Part shown: positions 8,762-60,000 of the stretch, one piece after another
Numbering within the stretch: the stretch's first letter is position 1
Layout of the letters: each line of letters starts with the position of its first letter
DNA from: Paralichthys olivaceus
Lineage: Eukaryota > Chordata > Actinopteri > Pleuronectiformes > Paralichthyidae
Direction: 5' to 3'
Length of the DNA stretch: 64,000 nucleotides
Assembly: GCF_024713975.1 (NCBI RefSeq)
Contig: NC_091099.1
Location: forward strand, 1,441,501 to 1,505,500
The notes under the pieces: generated by a model
Seen by the model: the letters and a program-made list of their open reading frames with translations, nothing else
Database searches by the model: none
What the model was told of the DNA's origin: nothing
Made by a program: the position numbers and the translations under genes

Positions 8762-8932
8762 CACCTGCTCCTCACCTGCTCCTCACCTGTTTAACACCTG
8801 CTCCTCACCTGCTCCTCAGCTGCTCCTCACCTGCTCCTCAGCTGCTCCTCAGCTGCTCCTCACCTGTTTAACACCTGCTCCTCACCTGCTCCTCAGCTGC
8901 TCCTCACCTGTTTAACACCTGCTCCTCACCTG
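8762..8932 (+). repeat. 11-bp minisatellite carrying 16 E-box cores, directly upstream of the il17c ATG
   Basis: A tandem array of an 11-bp unit: CACCTG or CAGCTG followed by a 5-bp linker, CTCCT or TTTAA. Sixteen CANNTG cores start at 8762 and recur at exactly 11-bp steps to 8927-8932. Twelve are CACCTG and four are CAGCTG. The array ends 22 bp before the il17c start codon. It therefore lies in the core promoter or 5' leader. CACCTG is the core bound by Snail/Slug and ZEB repressors and by class I bHLH factors. Whether the array is bound is not known. Confidence 0.9.
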
Positions 8933-12653: not shown

Positions 12654-13720
12654 GACACCGTCACGAGACCTGCGGAGTGTGTTTGACTTGAACTGTGACA
12701 GGTTATTACTGTTATTTAAACAACGTTGGACAAACCCTGACGGTGCGTTTACCTGCTGGTCAGCGTGCACGGTGACGAGGTTGCTGGTCACAGGATTGAC
12801 GGCTAAAGCAGTGGGACAGGAGCCGTACACTGGAACTGTGCAGTGAAGCTACAGACACACACACACACACACAGATGAGTTCCTCACTGAATCTTTATGG
12901 GTTAAATCGGACAGAGACGAGGACGTTAAGTTGTGACCGACCTTCAGCTTGCACAGGTTGTAGACGTGGACCTCACAGTCCGTGTTCGCTGTAGCGAGCC
13001 ACTTCCCGTCCTCGCTGGCAGACAGCAGGTGGACCGGCTGCCTGGAGCCTGCAGGTGAAACACAGGCAGTGACACACTGCAGGGACAGAGCTGCAGGGTT
13101 TAGCGAGTGTGTCATTGTGATCCACTCACCGGACTTGGGTTTGAGGGTAGAAAGGTATTTGCACTCCGACTGGTTGAGGGCGACAACGATGACGGAGGAG
13201 TGGCTGGAGGAGGCAAAGAGTTTGGAGGAGTCGGGGGAGAAGCAGAGCTGGTGCACAGAGCGAAGGCTCTTGGGTAATTTGGACACCTGGACAGAGACGG
13301 AGGAGTGAGATTACACTAAATATTTAACACATCAATAACACACACATCAACTACATTTATCTAATGATCTAAAACCGTTTTTCTGTTGAAACCATGGACA
13401 CAGAGAAGTTTACTAAAGTCAGAAATGTCACACACATGAACAAGTTATGAAATCAAGACTTTACAACTTCTTTACTTGATTAAAGTGAGTTTTCATGGTT
13501 CAGTGATTGTAAAGGACCTTGGTGACGCTGATGTTGTTGTTGTCGTCCTGAATTCTGTACAGACGGACACTGGAGACGGTGGAGTAGGCGATCCAGCCGC
13601 CGCACGGAGACAAAGCGCTGCAGCAGATCTGATCGTCTCCCTGCAGAGGTCACAGGACACAAGTCTCAATATCATCAACGAAAAAAGAAGAGTTGAGCTT
13701 CTGCACTGAAGTCAGGTTTC

Positions 13721-16831: not shown

Positions 16832-18128
16832 ATGGTTCAAATCGTCATCAGGTAAAAAACTGAACTAACTTCCACTTGAATCTGTTGAAACCTTAGACTG
16901 TAAATATATAAAGATATAAAGATATAAAGAGGTTGAAACCAGCAGCTCATTGAAATGTTGTGTTGTTACTTTTCATTCAGCGTGAAGAACAAACTCTGCA
17001 CGTGTCCGCGTTTTCTCTAAGTTTGAGCTTTTTTAAGACAGTAAATCTAAATCCTCATTTAATCACTGTGAAATAAAATCATGTAGAAAAGTGTCGGCAG
17101 ACTAAATACAAGAGAACACGTGGGAGCTACAGTCAAAACAGACGTTTTCAGGTTAAATTCAACTTTTTATCATATTGTTAAAACTGTGTGAGTCATCTGT
17201 ACGGAAGCGTTTTGTATTCACTTAAAAAAAAACCCCTCTTTCTGAATAATTAATTTTTTTGAATATTTTTTTTCTGTTTTTCTGACAATTTTTTTAGAAA
17301 AACAGAAAAAAATTATTCAAAAAAACAAACAAAAAAATTAATTACTCAGAAAGATTTTTTTTTTTCAAGTCAATGCAATCCGCTTCTGTAAATTTGCTCT
17401 CTGGATTAATTATCTTACATATGTTTTCATAATGTGAATATAATTAATTATATTCAATTAAGACAAACAATTACTCTTTCAGAGGCAGTGTGGATGGCAG
17501 CAGTTCTCCTGAGTGGCTGCTGGTGGAGCTTCAGGGAGAGGTGGTGTCCAGACACAACTCCGGCCTGGCAGGAAATGTGATGGGAGACCTGCTCTACACC
17601 AAAGAGGTCAAGGAAATAAGATTTACAATGTTTACAGACGCAAAACTGGACAAATTTCTGCTTCTAGCTTGAGGATTTTCTGAAATCTCGTTTCTCACAC
17701 GATAGATAAACCGATGGGAAATGAAAAGAATCGATTGCAGTAGTTCTACATGTCTGTGTTTGGTTTCCAACTCTTATGAAGTCTCAACATGTCGGAGTTT
17801 TTACCCCCTGATGGAACAGAATCATTTTACTCTAACAGTTCTGTGTTCCTCTCTCCACCAGGGGGTGCCAGTGCTGATTGTAGGACATCACATCCTGTAC
17901 GGGAAGCAGGTCAAACTGGAGAAACATTTTGCCGTCCTCACCAAGCGTTCCGACCACGAGCAGGACGCCCGAGACAGCAACGACGATGATGTCACACAGG
18001 TTCCTATGGAAACGGACCAGCCGGGCTCCACCTCCAAGTCTTACTACGTGTCGGCCATCATCAAACGGAAGCTGATCTTTAAGACTCGCCCCAAACCCAT
18101 CATCACGAATGTGCCCAAGAAGGTGTAG
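16832..18128 (+). CDS. chtf8: CHTF8 (CTF8, chromosome transmission fidelity factor 8)
   Basis: Three coding exons (16832-16851, 17483-17606, 17862-18128) encode 136 residues. It opens MVQIVI as in other CTF8 proteins. It then has [40 protein letters not shown] and the highly conserved end [18 protein letters not shown]8 pairs with DCC1 and CTF18 in the alternative RFC clamp loader, which loads PCNA and promotes sister-chromatid cohesion. Human CHTF8 is about 121 residues. The fish protein carries extra acidic sequence around residues 80-105 ([20 protein letters not shown]), between the ILYGK block and the C-terminal block. Intron 1 holds a palindromic MITE-like element. An AATAAA at 18337-18342 is the likely poly(A) signal. 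Confidence 0.95.
17200..17390. mobile_element. Palindromic MITE-like hairpin in chtf8 intron 1
   Basis: About 190 bp whose two halves are imperfect inverted copies. The outer arms are TACGGAAGCG / CGCTTCTGTA. The inner arms are CTTTCTGAATAATTAATT / AATTAATTACTCAGAAAG and CTGTTTTTCT / AGAAAAACAG around a small loop near 17285-17300. Each end abuts TA, which would fit a TA target-site duplication as in Tc1/mariner-type non-autonomous elements. No ORF. The family is not identified. Confidence 0.7.
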
Positions 18129-22833: not shown

Positions 22834-25800
22834 TTATGCCTCCGCGTACGGCAGGTGATACTGCTCCTCCCTCTTGTTGCAGCGTTTGGCTACGATGGCG
22901 AGGTAGAGCACCAGCAGAATGATCCAGTAGCAGGCGTAGAGTATCGTCCCTGTTATCAACAAGGCTTTCTCTGTCTCACTGAATGGCTCCTGTGTTTCGC
23001 AGTAGACGGTGTACACCACACCTCCGAGCAGCACCATCGCCCACACTGTGACGGGCACGGCGCCAATGAGATTGACAACGATCTTCCTGCGCCCTGAGGT
23101 GCCCCATCCCGCCTTGTTGATGGTGAGCAGGGCAAATATTTTGGCAGGGAGCAAGCTGGACATGTAGACCAGAGAGTAGAGCGACATGAAGATCATGACC
23201 AGGCTGCCGCGCAGGAAACAGGCGTAGGTGGCCTTCACCATCCCGACCAGCTGCACCGTCAATAAAAAGAGCAGGATGTTCCAGAGCCGTCCGCGGTAGA
23301 AGAGATGGATGACGGTGGCGACCAGGAAGAAGGGGAAGAACCCGGTGACCACAGACTCGTAGGTCATCCAGAGGCTGTGCTTGTGGAACCACAGGGCGTT
23401 GTAGAGCCACTCGCGGAAGTAGGACTTGCTCCATCGAGTCTGCTGGTTGAGCCAACGCAGATACTGTGTTGGCGTCTCAGTCTGGCACTGCGACCGCGCC
23501 GTGAATTTCGTCTTGTAGCCGAAGCTGAGCACCCGGTTGGTGAGGTGGCGGTCGTCGCCGAAGCTGCACTTGGAGCCGAGGAAGGTCTGGTGGTACCAGG
23601 GCTCCAGGAAGCGCTGGAGCAAAGAGTTCCTGTACATCCCCAGGGGGCCGCTGATGCACTGGACACATCCGAAGTAGGACTGGCAGGCTCGCTCTATGTT
23701 GAAGGCCATCCAGTAGCGCACGCTGCTGAGGAAGGAGATCCACGAGTCGTACTTGTTGAGGATCTGGAGAAAAGAAAGACAGAAAAAAGGTAAGAGGGCA
23801 TTTTTATTTTTCCTATTTTATTATATTGATTTCACATTTGTTAAAGCTTTCAATCTGCACTTGCACTCAAACAGCTTGTGCTTAGATGTGCTGTTGCTCA
23901 GACTGCGAGCTTACACTCAGATTTCATGCGCTAAAGCTTCAGATGTTCTTCTCGTGCTCATGCTGCTTCTTTGGAGTTACCTTCTCCTGGAAGACTGTCC
24001 AAAAGTAGAACCAAGGGTCTCAAGTAAAATCTTTATGTTATGAAAACACTGTCACTAGCAAAAAAAACCGAAGTTCTCTATCCTCTTTTATTGGAACAGC
24101 ACCAAAAGTAACCTTAACGAGGTCGGTACAATTTCATTTGTCAACACTACACCAGACATTCTGTTTTAATTTTGATGGACTTGTTTTTCGCAAAGAAATC
24201 CACGAGCAGATGTGTTACGTCTCCCCCTTGTGTCCGTGTGGTGTATGTGTGTTCGGTTCCTCTGTTTTCTCCCCAGGTGATCAGTCAATCAAGCCCACCT
24301 GTGTCCAATCATCCCACTGGCCCTGTCAGCCAATCAGAGGGCTCCACCGCCACCTATATATATGTGTGCTGTGTTCGTGCGAAGCCTCTTTTGAGAGAGG
24401 GAGGGAGAGAGGGAGGGAGAGAGGGAGGGAGAGAGGGAGGGAGAGAGGGGTACTGTTGTTGGTTATCTGTGTTTTCTGTGTTGTGTTTGAGTACAGAGTT
24501 GTGTTGTTTCTGTATTCCTTGTTTGGTGGTCTGTACTCGTGCAGTGTTTTTGTTCAGTTCTGTCTCACGCACAGGGGACAGGTGAACAGATAAGACACCC
24601 ATGGGTTTACATTTCCACCAAGTAGCCTTACACCTGTTAGCATTCACTCGGTAAGGAGTAGGTGCCACTCCATGTATTTATTACGTGTAGAGCAGCTTAG
24701 GATTCTGTTTCTGTGATAGCGTAGAGAGTTGCTGCACTAGCTTAGTACTGCACGTTGTGATTTATGATTTCTCTGCTTGGGCACCGCTCATAGTTCCCTT
24801 GTTCCCTGTGGCGTTTATTTTTGTATAATAAATTATCGTTCCTTTTACCGAAACCTTGGTTTGTTTACTTGCTGCCACACCACACACCCTGCGCTGCGCA
24901 GCGTTAGGCCCTTCAAACATCCCTCGACACTTTACCATCAAAAGGGTCATAACAAGATGTTTCACGTATAAACAGAAGCGAGAGTGAGAGCACAGGAGGA
25001 AAAATGCAGAAGCTTGAGCGCAGGAAAATCTAAGTGCAAGTGCACAGTTTCAAGTGTGAGCGCAGGGTTTAGAGTGAAAGCAATAAATATATATTTCACC
25101 TGCACGTCTCCACCAACTCCTCCCACCATCGCATCTTCCTCGAGGATCTTCAGCATTTCTATGGTACAGGCTGGATCCAAGACTGTGTCGGAGTCACACA
25201 CCTGGAAAACACACAACAACAAACACACAGGGTAACAATATTAACACACACACACACACACAGGCCTCGGTCACGTTCAGGCTGCAGGTGTGTCACTGCT
25301 GTAAATCCCTGAGAGAAATGAGCGGCTGCTGACAGAGATCCCAGCTGCTTCGTCGTAACCGTGCAGCCGGTCAGAGGTTTGGAAATGACCTTTGACCCAC
25401 AGAGTGCAGAGGTCGCCACAGCTGGAAGAACAAGAGGGTCGTCCAGAGCAGATCCATCAGTTCGGAATGATTCTACTTGTATTTAGTTTTTACTTATAGC
25501 GAGTAAAAGTTCAGTTTCCTGTCTTGAATCGATTTCATGCAGACGAATCTGAGCTCCAGCACGAAGCAGCACAGACACAGATTTAATTAGCGTGAGGATG
25601 AATGAAGATCAGTTTCCTCTCAGGACTTTGTGTAATGGGATTATTTTTGTCGACGTTAAGTTTTTACACAGATCACAGCCTTCGTGAAGTTTGCAACTAA
25701 TGTGAGTCTTGGAGTAATTTCAGTGGTGGTCACTAGGTGGTGCTGTGGGTAAACAAGGTGCCTACGCAAACATAGGAGTGATGAATGAAAATGTTCAGCT

Positions 25801-27860: not shown

Positions 27861-27929
27861 GCTTGTAACCCTTCAATAGTTGACCCAAGTGTCATTTCCT
27901 GTTTTTTTCCACTGTAACACTTTCATCAG

Positions 27930-27999
27930 CCTCTGACATCATGGAGAGCCTCTGACATCATGGAGAGCCTCTGACATCATGGAGAGCCTCTGACAGCAG
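27930..27999 (+). repeat. 19-bp tandem repeat, about 3.5 copies
   Basis: The unit CCTCTGACATCATGGAGAG is repeated three times and followed by a partial fourth copy. Confidence 0.9.

Positions 28000-34856: not shown

Positions 34857-46078
<11,222 letters not shown>

Positions 46079-46982: not shown

Positions 46983-47012
<30 letters not shown>
46983..47012 (+). repeat. Poly(A) tract of about 30 bp
   Basis: An uninterrupted A run. On the minus strand it is a T run about 20-50 bp beyond the poly(A) signal of the secreted-protein gene to its right. Confidence 0.95.
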
Positions 47013-47015
<3 letters not shown>

Positions 47016-47033
47016 GCATGAAGCTTTAAATCA

Positions 47034-47039
47034 TTTATT
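47034..47039 (-). terminator. Polyadenylation signal of the left secreted-protein gene
   Basis: AATAAA on the minus strand lies 150 bp beyond the stop at 47189. Confidence 0.6.
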
Positions 47040-47188
47040 CATATCAGATCATGTGCAGCAAACACTGAGGTAAAGACAGGTTTAAGTCAGCTGTGAGACG
47101 GCAACATGGAGAATGTTGTGGTAAAGACAGAGTAAGTGTCCTGATAGACTGCAGGTAAGAGAACATAGATACTGAGACAGTGTCAGAT

Positions 47189-48007
47189 TTAGAAGCCACC
47201 CTTGGCTGGAGCGTCAGCAGGCCGGCTTTGCACTGACGGTCTCCGGACTCTGCTCATAGGCATGAGAGGAAAAAAGGGAGGCTCTCCTGGGGTGTAGCGG
47301 GTCTGAGAGAACACTGCTCTTCCTCGGTTGTATCTTGAACGAGAGCTGAAGGAGTAAACTGGCTCCAGATCTGACACGTCGCTGAAGACCGGCTCAGGGG
47401 CCTTAGCAGCGGAAGCCTCAGTGTAGTAACGGGCCACAGCTTCAGCGTTGGGGTCTTGACTCACGACAGGCTCACTTCCTGCAGCTTCACCACCATAATC
47501 GTTACCTGGAGCATACGCTGCAACAGAACCCCAATATTGACTTTCCTCAGGGCCACTGTCTTCTTCATTACCACGGTTAGTCTCATCCATGTTGGTGGTG
47601 GTGCTGTAAAAATCTTGCCTGCCACTGAAACTGCCATCATCTTGAGCAGGAACTTTTTTGGCAGTGCTTGGGTTGAGTTGACTTGGTAAAGGGGAGCTGC
47701 TACCACTGCCAGGATTCACCCCAACGCCACTGTACCAGAACCCAGAGAACGGCGGCTGCATGAATCTTGGGTCAACATTATCTGATCTATAGTCTGAACA
47801 GAAACGAGATTTGAGTTTAAAGCAGAATTAAGTTTGTCAGAAATATGTTATATTGATAATTAAAGAGGTTCTTACCTTTTCTCACAGGTCCACAGATAAC
47901 GTGTCCAATGAGAAGAAACGAAATCCAGATCATCCTGTAGAAACATCACAGTTTTAGATCACGTGTTCCCAACGTAATATTTTCAGACGGTATTTAACTT
48001 ACTTCAT
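47189..48007 (-). CDS. Small secreted, cysteine-free, Tyr/Ser/Pro-rich protein (tandem copy A)
   Basis: I do not recognise this family by name. Three coding exons (48003-48007, 47876-47934, 47189-47793) encode 222 residues. The first coding exon is only 5 nt, ATG AA. The leader MKMIWISFLLIGHVICG is a clear signal peptide, cleaved near CG-PVRK. The mature chain has no cysteine and is rich in Ser, Pro, Glu, Gly and Tyr, so it is probably disordered. The C-terminal third (APEPVFSDVSDLEPVYSFSS, then SRYNRGRAVFSQTRYTPGEP) is almost identical to the copy at 50202-51224. A furin-like SRVRR lies about 20 residues from the end, followed by PADAPAKGGF. A TATA box (TATAAAAG, 48217-48210), a non-coding exon (about 48187-48145) and the 5' part of the ATG exon (from 48066) are readable. 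A secreted structural or matrix role is a guess. Confidence 0.85.
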
Positions 48008-48209
48008 TCTGCTGCTGAGTAAATTCTTGACGTGTAACTGCTACAAGCTGATTTCTGCCCAAGACCCTGCACAAACACAACATGGGAAACATTTCAGTGA
48101 TGATACCAACAGATTTTAGAAGTAATAGAACAACCTTTGCTCACCTGCTGGCAGGTGAACAGCTTCCAAACAGGAACGTGTCTGTGACATCATCATGAGT
48201 TCAAAGCTG

Positions 48210-48217
48210 CTTTTATA
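48210..48217 (-). promoter_or_regulatory. TATA box of the left secreted-protein gene
   Basis: TATAAAAG on the minus strand. About 30 bp downstream would start the leader exon, which ends in a good donor (CAG|GTGAGC at 48145/48144). The next acceptor is at 48067-48068. A strong TATA suggests tissue-restricted high expression rather than housekeeping use. Confidence 0.6.
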
Positions 48218-48356
48218 CGTCAGCAGTGCAGCAGGGACTGATTGCTCAGTGGTAACAGCTGTAAACACCAGGGAGCCACTCATTAACCTCGTAACCTCTT
48301 CTCTCCTCGATAGATTGTCAGTGATTTCATCCAACTATTGATTTAAGGCACCACGT

Positions 48357-48420
48357 TGCACGGTGGCACGGTGGTACAGTGGTACAGTGGCCAGCAAGGA
48401 GGTTCATGGATTTGAAAAAG
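48357..48420 (+). mobile_element. Decayed tRNA-like SINE head
   Basis: CACGGTGGCACGGTGGTACAG, then CCAGCAAGGAGGTTCATGGA, resembles the tRNA-like 5' end of a common teleost SINE (CACGGTGGCGCAGTGGTTAG, then CAGCAAGAAGGT). It is too decayed to assign further. Confidence 0.45.
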
Positions 48421-50116
48421 AAATGAGGGACAGGATTTTATAATTTAAGAGTTTTCCCAGCCTCCCACTCAGCCCTGTGCTGTTGCTAATCTTAGACTGA
48501 GTTCACTTCACTTTTTTGTGAATACATTTGTATTTTTTTTACACAACACGATGCTGTTGTGGTTCTTGAGATTATTTGCTCAACAGTATGAGGCAGTGGG
48601 GTTTGGACCCGTTTGTTTTTCCGGATGGTAAACATAAAATTAAAAGCTTTAAATTTAAAAATAAGTGACTTACATTCCTCTTGATTTAATACAGTTTGAA
48701 CATTTGACAACAAATGTGAGTGTAAATAAAACCTCTATACGTTTGGCGTTATCTCACGTTACACTAATTTTAAAAATGGAAACCTGTTGAACTAAATAGA
48801 ATTAATGGTCCTTTCACACAACACACACATTTCCACCCAGTATTGTCAATATTAGATCCTGATGCAGAGAAACGCTCAGAGCGACGCTGCATCGAGGCTT
48901 AATGACTGAACGTATGTGCAGCACGTGTGTTTGAGCAGAGCAGATGTTTCACTTCCATGGAGCCTGATGAAGGAAAAAATCAAGACTAAAGAAGTTAAAA
49001 CTGCAGCAACAAATTTATTACACAAGAGTTTTGACGTCTCCAAAACTGTGTTTGTGTCCAAGTGGAAATAATCAAAGATTGTGTTAGTGGAGACACTTTT
49101 CCCTGTTTGGTTTTATCTTAGTGAAGTTGTATGTTTAGTTGCGTCCTGCTGGTATTTTCCAGAGTTATCTTACCTTCACCTTTTACCGACTCATCTCAGG
49201 AGATATTTTGTTGGATGTGAAATTAACGCCTCAGACACACAATCAAACCATCCACTCTGTGGAAACATGGAGGCAGACCTTGCTCCTGTTTAATGGGTCT
49301 GAACTAAAACCAGTAATTGCAACCATAACATTTTCAGGTTACGTAGTTTGAGGCTATAAAAAAAACCCTAATTGACAAATGCAATAGGTCAATAGTTTTT
49401 AAAAAAGCATTTAGATTTGACCATCGTTTCCTTTTGCTTCTATTCTTGTGTCTTCATTCTGTCATTACTTTTTGTGTGTATATCCGACTGTGTGGCTCCT
49501 GCTTCCGTAAACTCACCAGTGGTCAGAAGTGGTATTTGAACCTGCACACTGGAACCGTCAACCGGTCAGCTGGGCTCAAACCTTTCTTGCAAGAAACCTA
49601 GAATAAGTTTTCACTGGTTCTTTCAGCTTCAATCTTTGAGCTTATTGACAATTTTAAGGCTTCCAGTGTAAATATCCACTTCAAGAGCGTCTTCACAGTC
49701 CAATGAGTTTCTTTTCACAAGTGATCAATTGTGCTTCACCTCTTTTGACAGCGAGCGTCACAAACACCAAAATAAGATGTCTCAAATGGTGCAAGTTGCT
49801 TTTAATAACAGCCAACATGTGATGCTGGGCAGCAGGCGTGTCCTTCAAGTGTGGTCCCATTAACACCCCTGGGCTAAACTACGGTCAGTGGGGTTCCATA
49901 GCTCACCTGCCTGAGCAGGAGCCTCGTGTCTGGAAGCTCGAATCCTCTGCAGTGACCTCAGCTTTCATGACAACTCTTAAATCTGACAACTCACACACAA
50001 TATCATGTTCCTCGTCAGCATCCACATGAAGTTAAGACACACAACACGTCCACCCTGGAACCCAATTATACAAATTAGGACAGAACAATGGTCAAGACAT
50101 CTTTTTTAAAAGTCAC
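48421..50116. other. Spacer between the two secreted-protein genes
   Basis: About 1.7 kb with no supported gene. A tRNA-like stretch near 49888-49960 (TAGCTCACCTGCCTGAGCAG ... CTCGAATCC) could be another SINE head, but the match is weak. Confidence 0.4.
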
Positions 50117-50122
50117 TTTATT
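50117..50122 (-). terminator. Polyadenylation signal of the right secreted-protein gene
   Basis: AATAAA on the minus strand lies 80 bp beyond the stop at 50202. Confidence 0.6.
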
Positions 50123-50201
50123 GGCGTCAGGTTGGCAGCAGTGAGACGGACGACCGGAAGTTTAAGACATTTACAGAGCGAGCAGCATCTGATCAGAATA
50201 G

Positions 50202-51224
50202 TTACACCCCACCCTTGGCTGGAGCGTCAGCAGGCCGGCTTTGCGCTGACGGTCTCCGGACTCTGCTCAGTGGCATGGGAGGAGGAAGAGGAGGCTCTCC
50301 TGGGGTGTAGCGGGTCTGAGAGAACACTGCTCTTCCTCGGTTGTATCTTGAACGAGAGCTGAAGGAGTAAACTGGCTCCAGATCTGACACGTCGCTGAAG
50401 ACCGGCTCAGGGGCCTCAGCAGCGTAGTAGCGGGCCACAGCTTCAGATTCAGCATTGGGGTCTTCATCTTGAGTCGCAACAGGCTCCTCTTCTGCGTAGT
50501 TAACATATACGCCGCCATAGTTGTCAGCTGGAGCAGCAGCTTCATACGGAGAGGCTGCATAAGGATACCCAGTGTAAAAACCAGCACTGCCAAAGGGATC
50601 TTGAGCAGGGGCCTCTTTAACAAAGCTTGGGTCGGGTTGACTTCGCATCATGAAGCCATCATCGCTGCTGCTGCTGCTGCTGCTGCCCATGTCAGGACCC
50701 ATCCATGTCACCCAATAAGGGTAATCAGCTGCCTGTGGCCTGGAGTCTGCGGCTGCTGCAGGAGCAAACATGTTATAAAATCGAATTTAACTGCCAAATG
50801 CAGATTAGAGCAGAATGTGTCAGGTTACCATTTTTAACAGGAGCACAGGTGACGCTTCCAGTCATCAGACACAACAGCCAGAACATCCTGCAAAACAGTT
50901 TCAGTTTTAAACATTTTGGAGACTTAATTTAGCTCAGTAGCACATAAAATGATCTAATTTCTTAAAATTGAAGCTCTTGAGAAATAATTGTAATGTCGTC
51001 TCAGGCTTATTTAAAATGTAAAACACTTGATGGAGCACAGGGACGGTGATTGTTTTTTAACCTTCAAATTGTAGAATAATTTGTCTCAAATTTCTCTTGT
51101 TCCTCGTTTCTCCAGAAGAGGATTTAAAAGAAACAAACTTCAAACATGATGAAGCATTTTCAACGAGACAAAGAACTGAGTCCTCCGGGGATGTTAGTCA
51201 TGCTCAGTCCGTCACTTACATCAT
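50202..51224 (-). CDS. Small secreted, cysteine-free, Tyr/Ser/Pro-rich protein (tandem copy B)
   Basis: Paralogue of the gene at 47189-48007 with the same structure: coding exons 51220-51224 (5 nt), 50829-50887 (59 nt, the same length as in copy A) and 50202-50755, giving 205 residues. The signal peptide is MMMFWLLCLMTGSVTCA. The mature chain has no cysteine. Its N-terminal half is Ser/Tyr/Ala-rich (seven consecutive Ser codons; YPYAASPYEAAAPADNYGG) and differs strongly from copy A. The C-terminal third is nearly identical, with SRVRRPSAQSRPADAPAKGG at the end. A 126-bp block (50291-50416) is identical at every base to 47278-47403. The acceptor of the last exon is CTGCAGCAG, so one residue may be optional. 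A TATA-like TTTAAAAC lies at 51420-51413, with a leader exon ending at 51364. The function is unknown. Confidence 0.85.
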
Positions 51225-51412
51225 TTTCAATTCAGTGCGTTGATCAGTTCAGGATTTCTGCCCGGCAACGTCTCCCCAACAAACTGTGGAGGCAAAGCAC
51301 AGGACGACATTTGATCCAGGTGACGACGAACATCACGAGTTAAAACTATCAACCATTTCTCACCAGCACAGGAGTCGTCCACGGGCACAATGTCCTCCTG
51401 AGCCCGAGGCCG

Positions 51413-51420
51413 GTTTTAAA
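51413..51420 (-). promoter_or_regulatory. TATA-like element of the right secreted-protein gene
   Basis: TTTAAAAC on the minus strand sits at the same relative place as the TATA box of copy A. It is followed by a short non-coding exon with donor CTG|GTGAGA (51364/51363) and a second leader part 51257-51225 that leads into the ATG. Confidence 0.4.
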
Positions 51421-52079
51421 GGACTCTCACCTCATTGATGGATAATTAGCAGCAGCTGACAGACAACCAGGAAAACTGAATTGTGTTCAAGGAGAAGACG
51501 GTTTTTTTAACGTGTGTCATTCTTCTGGCCACACACTCCTCTCTCCCTTTGTGACACATGTCTGTACGAACCGACTAAGGCCAGAATACTCTAATGATCT
51601 AATTCAAATTAAGATAATCAGAAAATACTATACATGACAGTGCTATATCATATATCACATACAGTTCAGTTAATATATGGGTTCATGTATAAATAGTCAA
51701 TAATACTATTTAAAACATTTTATATCTGTTTGGAAAGGTTTGGCTGCAGATGGCTTGAATAAGGAATTTACATTTTGCAGTTGAAAATACATGGAGTTTA
51801 ATTTGTAGTTTGCTCACTGATGGATTTCTGGAGGTAGATGAATTGTGTACAGCCCATATCGATAACTATCACGATACATATTTGTTATTGAACGTTTAAA
51901 GATGGATTCTCTGGAGAGAAGCTCGTGGTTTTCCATGTGAATGATAAACTCTTTATAAACCACAGGAACATCTGACATAATGAGGAGCAGAGAGTTTTTA
52001 GACTTTAATATTCTGGTGAACTGACCCTTTAAAATTAAACAACAAGGAGGAGGAGCTGCGGGGCCCGTTGAGCCCCTCC
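51421..52079. other. Intergenic region upstream of the cryptochrome gene
   Basis: A divergent gap between the right secreted-protein gene (-) and cry (+). It is mostly AT-rich. Nothing specific is seen until the CpG-rich cry promoter begins near 52060. Confidence 0.5.
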
Positions 52080-52259: not shown

Positions 52260-55200
52260 ATGGCGGTGAACTCGGTGCACTGGTTCCGCAAAGGTCTCCG
52301 TCTGCACGACAACCCGGCGCTGCAGGAGGCCCTGAGCGGAGCGGACACGGCGCGCTGTGTTTATATCCTGGACCCGTGGTTCGCAGGCGCCGCCAACGTG
52401 GGAATCAACCGATGGAGGTTCGTGAATTAACCGTAGCTCAGCGTCGAACCCACGTCGGTGTGAGCTCGTGTCGCGAACACCGGCTCCTCTTGTCTCCGCG
52501 GGTTCGAGTCAAACCCTCCGGGTCGCTTGTACTCGAGGCCCGGGCCTCCGCTCCACGTCAGCTAACAATGCTAGCTTACTGCGAGGGGCAAGCTAGCATT
52601 AGCCAGCGTCCGTGGGTGAAACTAATAATCTAGTGTTTTTACGTGGAGATTCGCGAAATATCTCCGCGTGGAAGGAGAAGAAACACGTGTGGTCGAATCT
52701 CGGTCGCTCCCCGGTGCGTTCGGCTTCCGTGTGGAACTGTTACACAACCGTCAAATCTCAAATTCAAGCCGAACAATGGAGAGAAAGAGGAGCTGCGCGG
52801 TGTTAACAACACGCGAATCAGCGCGTTAACGCGACACACTTTAAACAGAGGACTGGTTTTGAGTACTGGAGTGAAACACACGTGTGTGTGTGTCTGTGTG
52901 TGTGTGTGTGTGTTGGATAACAGGAGAAATTCAGGAAGCAAAGGAAAAAGAAGCGATAACGTCATGAGGTTTGGTGACGATGTAAATATTGAGGTTCACG
53001 GTTGAATACAAACAGATCCAGGAGTTAACGTCAGTAACACGAGTTCATCGTCATCACACTGTTTATCCAATGAAGACAACAAGGACACACTCATTCACAA
53101 ACATGGCTGACACACGTGACATAATGCCAGAAACAGATTCCCATGAAATTTAGAGGAAGGATGCGATTCACGCTACAAGAAGAATCCAGACTCTCATTAT
53201 CACGGGAAGATTTAAACATTTCTGTTAATTTCCTCAGAGAGTCGTTTATGAAACATAGCAAAGGGACCGATATGTTTGAGTGTGAGCAATTAGAATATTA
53301 TTAAATCTCTATATTTTGGTTTGAGTGAATCTCAACATGAACACCTGAGTGAATTAGTTTTTCGTCTTTGTCACAGCAGAGATGTAAACCAGGTCAGGGT
53401 GCAGTCAGGTTGGTTCAGGATTTCAAACCCAGAGTAGAAAGAAAAACCTCCCGGACTTCAACAATCCCACCTCTAAAATACAACTAACAATTAAAACAAG
53501 CAGAACGAAGTGTAGATACATTCAACATCACATCCACTCAGGTCCGTGTTTTTAATTCTAGGGTCGACGGAGTGCTTCAGTCCACTCACGTCGAATCACG
53601 GATCCTGTGAATCAATAAGCGGTTTGACCCTCGCGTCCTCTTTGATGCAATTTCCACATGCAGCAGTGCTGCTCAGTAACCGTCGATGACCTGAGAACTC
53701 AAACGACACAACCTTTAGAAACCTTTTGATGCCACCATCAGAAACGCCTCTGAAGCTGCTGCGGACGACGGGTTTGGCATCAGCGAGTACGTGAATGTAT
53801 TTACCGTCCGATACCACGGTTTTAAAGTAAATCAGTTCCTCAGTCCCGCTGTTGCGCTGTACTGCGGAAGAGGTGATCACCAGTAGTGTAGCCTTATCTG
53901 GAGCGAGCTAGATCTAGATCGTTAATCTAGAGATGTTTCACTCTGGGACGTCCAACAAGAAAGAGACAGATATTATCGATTCCCGGGAAGCTGCCATGTC
54001 ATCCATCTTTAATTGAAGTCAGTGGTCCCATCTTCTCAAACAGGATTCTTCGCCCTCATCATCCTTTGTGCTGAACATTTGATATAAACAGACATTCAGT
54101 TGTTTGCTCAAACTTGAACGTGTTGTGGTGTTCAGTGTCAGTGAGCTGCAGAAACAGGGAGTGGGTCTGTGAAGGTAGATCTCCGTCAGTACCGTCTCAG
54201 CGGCGCTGCCTCGTTTAGAGAGGCTGTATTTCTTACCAATGACGTGTCCCTCGTTGATGTGTGTGCAGGTTTCTGCTGGAGTCCCTGGAGGACCTGGACA
54301 ACAGTCTGAAGAAGCTCAACTCCAGATTGTTTGTAATCAGAGGGCAGCCCACGGACGTGTTCCCCAGGCTCTTTAAGGTCTGTATTCCTGAACTCTCTGT
54401 CCGTCACGGTCCAAAACTTTAACCACAGGTACCACAAAGGTCCCCGACTAAAGAAACTACACAAGACAAATCACTTGGTGTTAAACTGCTGTGTTCACTT
54501 GATACAGCTGCTGATATTTAACAAGGACTCCGTTCAGTGTGTATGTAGTTTAATCAACGTCACCTACATGGTTTTAAAATGGGTCTGAAAGTATACATTA
54601 AAAATATTAATGTTGGTATTTGTGATAAATTTACAGTAAAACTGTGACAGGCTCATTGAATCTCTTTAGATAGATACTTTGATTATTATTATTGATCTCC
54701 AGGGAAAGTGAAGTGGTCGGAGGTGTTAGGGTTAGACTCTGGAAAGAGCTTTAGGGACGCAGAATGGTGGTCCACCCACCGGTGTCCACTTACTCTGAGA
54801 CACGAGACGGCGTGAGAGCCCGCTGTATGTGTGTGTTCTGTGACTATGCTCCCTGTAAACTCACAACCACGTGAGATCATGCACATGAACATTGTAGATT
54901 TGTGCATCAGTGAATATTTTTTATAACCTTTCTTCTCTTTTTTTATTTTGAGTGGCCAAAACCCTCTCCCCTGCCGAGGCCGCAGTGACTCAGCTTTTGC
55001 TTTGTAATGTTATTAGCAGCTAAATGGATCACATAAGAGTAAAATGAAAAGTAAATGTCTGAACGTTTCCCAGGCACATGTTTCCTCTCTTCTTCTGCCA
55101 TTAAACTAAATCACAGAGACACGATGAAGGTGAAAATGTTGCGTCTTTATTCCGCCTGAAAAGAACAAACGAATCTAAAATCACGAACATGGGTGTAAAC

Positions 55201-57078: not shown

Positions 57079-60000
57079 ACTGTGTGAGGCAGGAGGGAGT
57101 GGAGCTTTGTGTGTGTGTGTGTGTGTGTGTGTGCGCGGGCTCAGCTGCAGGGTTTATATTGGTCGTACTGTGGACATGTGTGCAGCTCACTGGTCACAGT
57201 CTGTCGACCAATGGGAAGCTTCCCCGGTTGCAAATCCAGCGACTGACGATCCAGAGCGTCGTCACAGACAAGTTGTATAAGACAGCATCTATAAATACAG
57301 AGCTTCACCGTCAGCTGCTCCGACAAATACAACAAAATTAAGACATGAGGGTCACTTCACTAGTTACTCATGATGATGAGGTGGATAATACAGGGTTCAT
57401 TAATTCAACACTTTTTAATTCTTGAGCCTGTTGGTTACTGATGCTTGTCAATGATTCCTCGTTACGATAAAGAAATTTATTGAGGTTTGATATTTCACAG
57501 TTTAACTTATAAACATAAAGTAACTGTGAATGAAAATACAAATTTAAATCAAGAAAATAAAGATTATTTCTTAAATTCTAAACAGAAATGCTTTTCTGTG
57601 TTTTCATATCGTTTGTTTTTTCATCGCTCAACTCTTAAATCTGTCGGACTCAAATAAATTCATAACATAAGAGACATAAACAGTAAGATAACAGGAAACA
57701 CTCCTGCACCACGTGTTTGTCGTTGATGTATTTATTTGTTGAGCGTAATATAAGAAGGTTTGTCTCTTGTGTTGTCGTCACAGGATCATTGAGATGAACA
57801 ACAACAGTCCTCCTCTTACCTTCAAGCGGTTTCAGACCATTGTGAGTCGACTGGAGTTGCCCAGGAGACCTCTGCCTCCCGTCACCCAGCAGCAGATGGA
57901 CAAATGTCGCACCAAGATAACCAACAACCACGACCAGCTGTACAGCATACCCTCTCTGGAAGAGCTGGGTACGCACGACTGTTTTCATTATGTACAATAC
58001 GCTGAGATGAAGCACTGTGACGCGTTCTTTATATTGTGTTTTGAATTTCGGTATGAGAGAGTATGAATACGTCGTGAACGAGAGAGTAAAGGTTAAATAA
58101 AGAGAGAGAGAGATGGAAGAGGGGGAAGCAAACCACCCTTTAGGTCCAGCATCGTTAAAGGTTACTAACTATGGAAAACATGAGAGGACATGACAGGACA
58201 GGAGAGGACAGTTGGTGTCTGGGGACGGTTTAGTTCACTGTGTGACAGCTGCTTCGTGTTTCACCGTGTCTCCAGGCTTCAGGACGGTGGGTTTACCTTC
58301 AGCTGTGTGGACAGGAGGAGAATCGGAGGCTTTGGACCGGCTCAACAAACATCTTGACAAGAAGGTAAAGCAGAAACTGACGTTAAGGCCCCATGACTGG
58401 ACTAATCCAGACGAGTTTAATGTTAGTGTTCATTCTTTAATAAGTGTCACATGATGTAAACAAGCGGAATCAGATCGTCTCTGACGCTGACGGAGACGGA
58501 GACAGACGTGAGTTTCACATCTGAAGAAGCACAGGAGATTATCTGGGTCACACTTGTTCACAACAGCAGGATACGTTCGGCCCCTGAACAAAAATACACG
58601 AGTCTCTTTGTTGTGGTGGTAAATGAAGGCCACTGAAAAGAAGAACTGAACCTGACGTCTCAGGTGCGTCTCTCGAATGTCCTCTCTGTGTCTGTCTGTG
58701 CAGGTGTGGGTGGCTAACCTGGAGCACCCTCGGGTCAACACGTGCTCTCTGTACGCCAGTCCCACCGGCCTCAGCCCCTACCTGCGCTTCGGCTGTCTGT
58801 CCTGCAGGGTTTTGTACTACAACCTGCGAGAGCTCTACATGAAGGTACTGTGGATTTCTGTCTCTGCGTCCTCTGCGCTCTGACGTCTGCCGTAACCTAA
58901 TTCTTCCTCTTCCTCTCGCGTGTTTGTCCGTCAGCTCCGTAAGCGCTGCAGTCCTCCTCTGTCCCTGTTTGGTCAGTTGCTATGGAGAGAGTTCTTCTAC
59001 ACCGCTGCCACCAACAACCCCAACTTTGACCGCATGGATGCAAACCCCATCTGTGTCCAGGTGGGTCACATTCAAGAAACTCACCCTCATCAACAAAAAC
59101 TATTTACTTTAATAATTCATGAGCTGAAACCACTGAATGTTAGAAAAGTATTTGTTTCCTGTGGAGACAAGTGTTTTGTTCATATTTGTCTCCCTCTCGA
59201 TCGTCTCCAGATCCCGTGGGACCAGAATCCAGAGGCACTGGCGAAGTGGGCCGAGGGCCGGACTGGTTATCCCTGGATCGACGCCATCATGACCCAGCTG
59301 AGACAGGAGGGCTGGATCCACCACCTGGCCCGACACGCCGTGGCCTGTTTCCTGACCAGAGGAGACCTGTGGATCAGCTGGGAGAGCGGCATGAAGGTAT
59401 GAACTGAAACTCAAACACGTCAGCTCAGTTCACAGCAGGAGGAGATGATAGAAGACAGTTTACATGCATTGTGTGTGTGTGTGTGTTGCAGGTGTTTGAG
59501 GAGCTGCTCCTGGACGCAGACTGGAGTGTGAATGCTGGCAGCTGGATGTGGTTGTCCTGCAGTGCCTTCTTCCAGCAGTTCTTCCACTGCTACTGTCCCG
59601 TCGGCTTCGGAAGAAGAACTGACCCATCAGGAGATTATATCAGGTACCGATGCTCCGACAGTATCTCCTCTTCTTAACGTTGAAGCTTTTAAATTATGTT
59701 TTCAAACTGCCGCAGGATGAAAAGTCGCTTGTGTTAAATCTCCTGCAGGCGTTACATCCCCATCTTAAAGGACTATCCCAACCGTTACATCTACGAGCCG
59801 TGGAACGCACCGGAGTCCGTCCAGAAGGCGGCAAACTGCGTGGTGGGAGTGGATTATCCCAAACCCATGATCAACCACGCAGAGGGCAGCAGGCTCAACA
59901 TCGAGAGGATGAAACAAGTCTACCAGCAGCTGTCCCACTACAGAGGACTCAGTAAGTCGTGTGTGAGACACTGTGAGCGTCAGAGGCAGTTCAACAGATG

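Follow-up and report, generated by a model that had tools for sequence, protein, structure and literature searches.

The question raised by this locus is what kind of protein is encoded by two adjacent and similarly built genes, here designated A and B, in a window of 64,000 nt from the Paralichthys olivaceus genome (assembly GCF_024713975.1, contig NC_091099.1, positions 1,441,501 to 1,505,500). The first-pass annotation had described them as an unrecognised tandem pair of secreted, cysteine-free, Tyr/Ser-rich proteins that share a core of no named family, and had suggested a structural, matrix or egg-coat role, or else a pro-peptide cut at RVRR. The pair was confirmed on the minus strand, where gene A occupies about 47.03-48.19 kb and gene B about 50.12-51.39 kb, with TANGO6 on one side and a cryptochrome-like gene on the other. 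The proposed spacing of about 3 kb and the like architecture of the two genes are both borne out, as the identical tracts which they contain (described below) are 3,013 nt apart and their exon lengths match.

Both genes follow a common four-exon plan, in which all three introns of each model are of the GT-AG type and the introns of the coding part are in phases 2 and 1. In gene A, a TATA box, TATAAAAG, at 48210..48217 (this and all following features of the two genes being on the minus strand) precedes an untranslated exon 1 at 48145..48186 (donor GTGAGC), the 5' end of which was guessed at about 30 nt downstream of the TATA box. Exon 2 is located at 48003..48066, with the start codon at 48005-48007, exon 3 at 47876..47934 and the coding part of exon 4, including the stop codon, at 47189..47793, together specifying a precursor of 222 residues, and a polyadenylation signal, AATAAA, lies downstream of the stop codon at 47034..47039. 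The corresponding features of gene B are a TATA-like element, TTTAAAAC, at 51413..51420, exon 1 at 51364..51389 (untranslated, donor GTGAGA, 5' end guessed), exon 2 at 51220..51283, exon 3 at 50829..50887, the coding part of exon 4 with its stop codon at 50202..50755, and AATAAA, again downstream of the stop codon, at 50117..50122; the precursor comprises 205 residues. Of the TATA or TATA-like elements claimed earlier, that of gene A is a TATA box, while gene B possesses only a weak likeness. Exon 2 measures 64 nt in both genes, its first 59 nt being 5' untranslated and its coding end being ATGAA in A and ATGAT in B, and the separate 5-nt ATG exon that had been proposed was therefore rejected, these five nucleotides representing the end of exon 2. 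The proposed 59-nt signal-peptide exon was retained: exon 3 is 59 nt long in both genes and each copy, standing alone, is detected by the PF07117 profile (31.9 and 32.1 bits, above the curated cut-off of 28.9). The gene models now include the signal-peptide exons of both genes.

Nine neighbouring reading frames of the window were scanned against Pfam, two of which returned no family. A TANGO6_N match was found in the frame at 44537-45331 (-), while a photolyase FAD-binding match in the frame at 58896-59402 is read as a cryptochrome, whose first exon would, in our reading of the sequence, lie at about 52.26 kb; this 53-residue piece, scanned alone, matched no Pfam family. Further frames were read as HAS3 (22834-23817 (-), chitin-synthase/GT2 family), UTP4 (12849-13310 (-), WD40 propeller) and CHTF8 (17706-18128 (+), Ctf8). 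The neighbour set, read as HAS3, UTP4, CHTF8 and TANGO6, resembles that of human 16q22. A literature search pairing any two of TANGO6, HAS3 and cry1b returned no paper that concerned fish by its title.

The claim that the core belongs to no named family proved to be incorrect, and the pair can no longer be regarded as an unrecognised family. A Pfam scan of the spliced proteins returned PF07117 (DUF1373) with scores of 124.7 and 127.7 bits, the cut-off being 28.9, and the match extends in both proteins over profile positions 1-144 of 145, i.e., from the initiator methionine to TPGEPP. The 40-residue core alone scores 82.8 bits (E 7e-23), and the N-terminal parts alone score 43.2 and 38.6 bits. 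The last-exon frames by themselves yielded 89.3 and 86.5 bits; addition of the predicted upstream exons raised these to the full scores and moved the start of the match to profile position 1. As the signal peptide forms the first part of PF07117, this gain tests the splicing model independently. At E values up to 10, neither protein matched any further Pfam family, and PF07117 was returned for none of the four shuffled proteins that were scanned (of six made), one of which had three unrelated weak matches. The two last-exon proteins matched no family in NCBIfam, and the last-exon protein of gene B, the only one used as a query against PDB sequences, had no match there. On the strength of these profile matches, A and B are almost certainly a tandem pair of DUF1373 gene models.

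When the PF07117 profile was searched against the 588-Mb genome in 25 contigs, four matches were obtained, all of them being the last and signal-peptide exons of these same two genes, so that the pair is more than a chance finding. A genome search with a 38-residue core likewise gave two matches. Genes A and B are consequently the only two DUF1373 genes found by the profile in this genome, in searches that read exon by exon and scored the best candidates, and which a strongly diverged copy could escape. The profile had no match in 14 control genomes, a result that carries little weight, and tblastn against pattern-selected stretches (594 from genome contigs and 25 from viral contigs) revealed no relative. 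A stretch of the window at 54735-54974 (-) gave weak tblastn matches (E 0.11 with B and 0.97 with A); its end recalls TPGEPP..SRV, the end of the core and tail, and its frame holds stops. This stretch appeared neither in a repeat tblastn at E up to 1 nor in the PF07117 genome search, and shuffled versions of B and A reached these E values in 3 of 100 and 33 of 100 cases, respectively, so that the resemblance is probably due to chance.

The family that has been reached in this way is catalogued, but unstudied and functionally blank. Its Pfam text presumably describes it as specific to Oryzias latipes (medaka), and its early entries are assumed, partly by guesswork, to derive from ovary cDNA screens. 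Literature searches for DUF1373 or PF07117 in main text, and for six short peptides, returned no paper, and DUF1373 is not mentioned in the available portions of PMC9330664, PMC2262088, PMC5875746, PMC1488847, PMC13079451, PMC2447462, PMC3478158, PMC3530452, PMC4591011, PMC10711633, PMC3305648, PMC10878419 and PMC9138882. A match to a well-described family, which according to the first-pass annotation would refute its reading, has therefore been found in part: a Pfam family is matched, but its name is that of a protein of unknown function and the literature searched is silent on it. What had appeared to be an orphan pair thus becomes two members of a catalogued but unstudied family.

Regarding the proteins themselves, the absence of cysteine from the mature chains was substantiated, as cysteines are confined to the first 16 residues (residue 16 in A; residues 8 and 16 in B). 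Both proteins are predicted to be secreted, judging from the hydrophobic N-terminus and the family profile that starts there. Their description as Tyr/Ser-rich is partly right: from residue 21 onwards, serine makes up 13.9 and 12.4 percent of A and B, tyrosine 5.4 and 7.6 percent and proline 11.4 and 13.5 percent, with alanine at 14.6 percent in B. The chains are acidic overall and consist of an acidic N-terminal part (net charge -9 and -14 in the two genes), a neutral core with five Arg, three Tyr and three Phe within 41 residues, and a basic tail (+4). A simple charge-hydropathy line places both on its disordered side, by small margins (0.405 versus 0.422 and 0.419 versus 0.432), and no N-glycosylation sequon is present from residue 21 onwards in either protein. 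A chain of this type would suit a matrix component better than an enzyme. The protein of gene B also contains a Ser-rich acidic stretch, SSSSSSSDDG; its poly-Ser is encoded at 50664-50686 by 7.7 perfect copies of a GCT/AGC triplet, a run which is absent from A and is the one coding tandem repeat listed at the DNA level for 47000-51500.

The shared core on which the first-pass annotation had relied lies in a stretch of 127 nt that is identical in DNA between the genes (47277..47403 in A, where it codes for the DUF1373 core, and 50290..50416 in B). Same-residue codons amount to 58 of 123 aligned before the core, as against 63 of 69 from the core to the end. The dS between A and B amounts to 1.24 in the part from the signal peptide to the core and to 0.12 in the tail (dN 0.13). 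Over the 41 codons of the core it is 0.033, with a single synonymous difference, in the last of them. Of the fourfold sites, 13 of 33 differ ahead of the core and 3 of 38 from the core to the end (Fisher p 0.0019); a second count over alignment columns 160-199, six of which overlap the 'before' set, gave 0 of 22 (p 0.0007). In the N-terminal part, dN/dS is about 0.4 (0.50/1.24), and there is thus no sign of positive selection. The blastn match around the tract stops inside the final two codons; of the 3' UTRs, a 14-nt piece is all that aligns, and blastn of introns and UTRs returned just short or weak pieces. Besides this tract, the only exact repeats of at least 40 nt left in the window by a low-complexity filter are local direct repeats at 8776-8932 and 27928-27995.

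These patterns indicate that core and tail have very probably been homogenised between A and B by gene conversion, a mechanism deduced from the distribution of differences. It could be argued instead that the core owes its identity to a recent duplication or to selection acting directly on DNA or RNA, in line with its near-zero dS and with the conservation of the protein core in the family. However, recently duplicated genes should resemble each other in introns and UTRs, whose alignment is here limited to short or weak pieces, indicating that A and B do not stem from a recent duplication, while selection on DNA would have to cover nearly every synonymous site of a single tract and then drop on both sides of it; either explanation is rather improbable. 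As the shared core is in part a product of conversion, its conservation at the protein level rests on the family-profile match, and the score of the core alone indicates that it is also conserved in DUF1373. These approximately 40 residues are likely to be the functional part of the protein. The conversion tract is new here, whereas the DUF1373 family was already in Pfam.

What, then, might such a pair do? The reading that best explains the whole, i.e., a DUF1373 pair with a conversion-homogenised core and a putative role in the egg, is in our estimation an even call, and the more specific proposal that the A and B products are oocyte-secreted, disordered components of the egg coat or perivitelline space falls slightly short of that. 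Put more generally, our best guess is a secreted, lineage-restricted and possibly egg-coat protein. Under this proposal, the oocyte would express A and B and release their products into the egg envelope or the perivitelline/cortical space. The disordered acidic N-terminal part would form a variable spacer there, and a conserved partner in the matrix of the egg would be bound by the Arg/Tyr/Phe core and the basic tail together.

The preference for the egg derives from the place where the family was first found, in part a guess, and from a CAGCTG E-box that precedes the TATA element of each gene. This motif, whose function is presumed, is located upstream at a distance of 38 nt from the TATA box in A (48256..48261) and of 32 nt from the TATA-like element in B (51453..51458). 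The window contains 246 oriented TATAAA/TTTAAA sites, of which 8, those of A and B among them, have CAGCTG within 60 nt; E-boxes are, however, common, and the position in these two genes was noticed after the fact. For the ovarian ZP genes of medaka, regulation by bHLH factors has been suggested from their gene structure (PMC9330664, a paper in which the word E-box does not occur). Against an egg role, the A and B proteins have neither a ZP domain nor an N-glycosylation sequon, and 'DUF' occurs zero times in the main text of PMC13079451, a proteome study of zebrafish chorion and perivitelline proteins. A broader generalisation, that DUF1373 represents a class of non-ZP egg-coat or perivitelline proteins of fish, in which the N-terminal part diverges while a partner-binding core is kept identical between tandem genes by conversion, is speculative and more doubtful still. 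If true, it would describe a modular egg protein, one half of which drifts apart while the other is held together. An egg role, if it holds, would give fish egg biology a further component that is free of cysteine and not of the ZP type, and little beyond an annotation would be lost if it were false.

Among the competing explanations, it is very improbable that one or both genes are decaying or unexpressed, given that both genes have open frames, intact splice sites, matching exon lengths, a TATA-like element and an AATAAA signal. The RVRR noticed near the end of the chains was verified, occurring once per precursor, at residue 203 in A (47240..47251) and residue 186 in B (50253..50264), coordinates derived from the residue numbers. 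This single site, together with a tail that is well kept between the genes, would fit prohormone-like precursors from which a furin-type convertase frees a short C-terminal peptide. The same conversion tract accounts for the similarity of the tails, however, and the part conserved in the family sits upstream of RVRR, the PF07117 match ending before this motif so that the tail lies past it in both proteins. Furthermore, the chains end in AKGGF and AKGGV, without a Gly-basic amidation signal, and RVRR is followed by Pro in A and B. Furin disfavours Pro at P1', which weakens the furin reading; cleavage after RVRR is unlikely on this sequence, and the prohormone explanation is an improbable one. 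Slightly more credit, if still little, is due to the view that these are matrix proteins, structural or mineral-associated, which belong to skin, bone or scale rather than to the egg. The mineral-matrix proteins of the SCPP group are acidic, disordered and secreted, and the A and B chains are likewise small, acidic, probably disordered, Ser/Pro-rich and, by the reading of their N-terminus, secreted, B having in addition its SSSSSSSDDG stretch. SCPP genes, on the other hand, have phase-0 introns and a neighbourhood formed by the SPARCL1 cluster, whereas the introns of A and B are in phases 2 and 1, their neighbours are TANGO6 and a photolyase/cryptochrome-type gene, and DUF1373 is the sole family matched. 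Membership of the SCPP group was rejected on the intron phases.

The putative egg component that is preferred here may finally be set against proteins of the fish egg. Hyosophorin-type cortical alveolus glycoproteins consist of tandem peptide repeats carrying N-glycans, and this type was rejected for A and B, which contain no sequon from residue 21 onwards and whose sole listed coding repeat is the triplet run of gene B. The medaka ovarian structure protein 1 (OSP1), an ovary protein according to the title of a 2015 paper, is no more than a lead, any tie between OSP1 and DUF1373 being a guess. Egg-coat proteins of the ZP type possess a ZP domain with conserved cysteines, and this identity was rejected for A and B, for which the Pfam scan at E up to 10 returned DUF1373 only and whose mature chains are devoid of cysteine. 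While A and B thus differ from the fish ZP proteins and choriogenins in the domain and in the cysteines, they would resemble them in being secreted and in carrying a basic site of the RxRR type near the end. A further likeness would be possible regulation by bHLH factors, as suggested for the medaka ovarian genes (PMC9330664).
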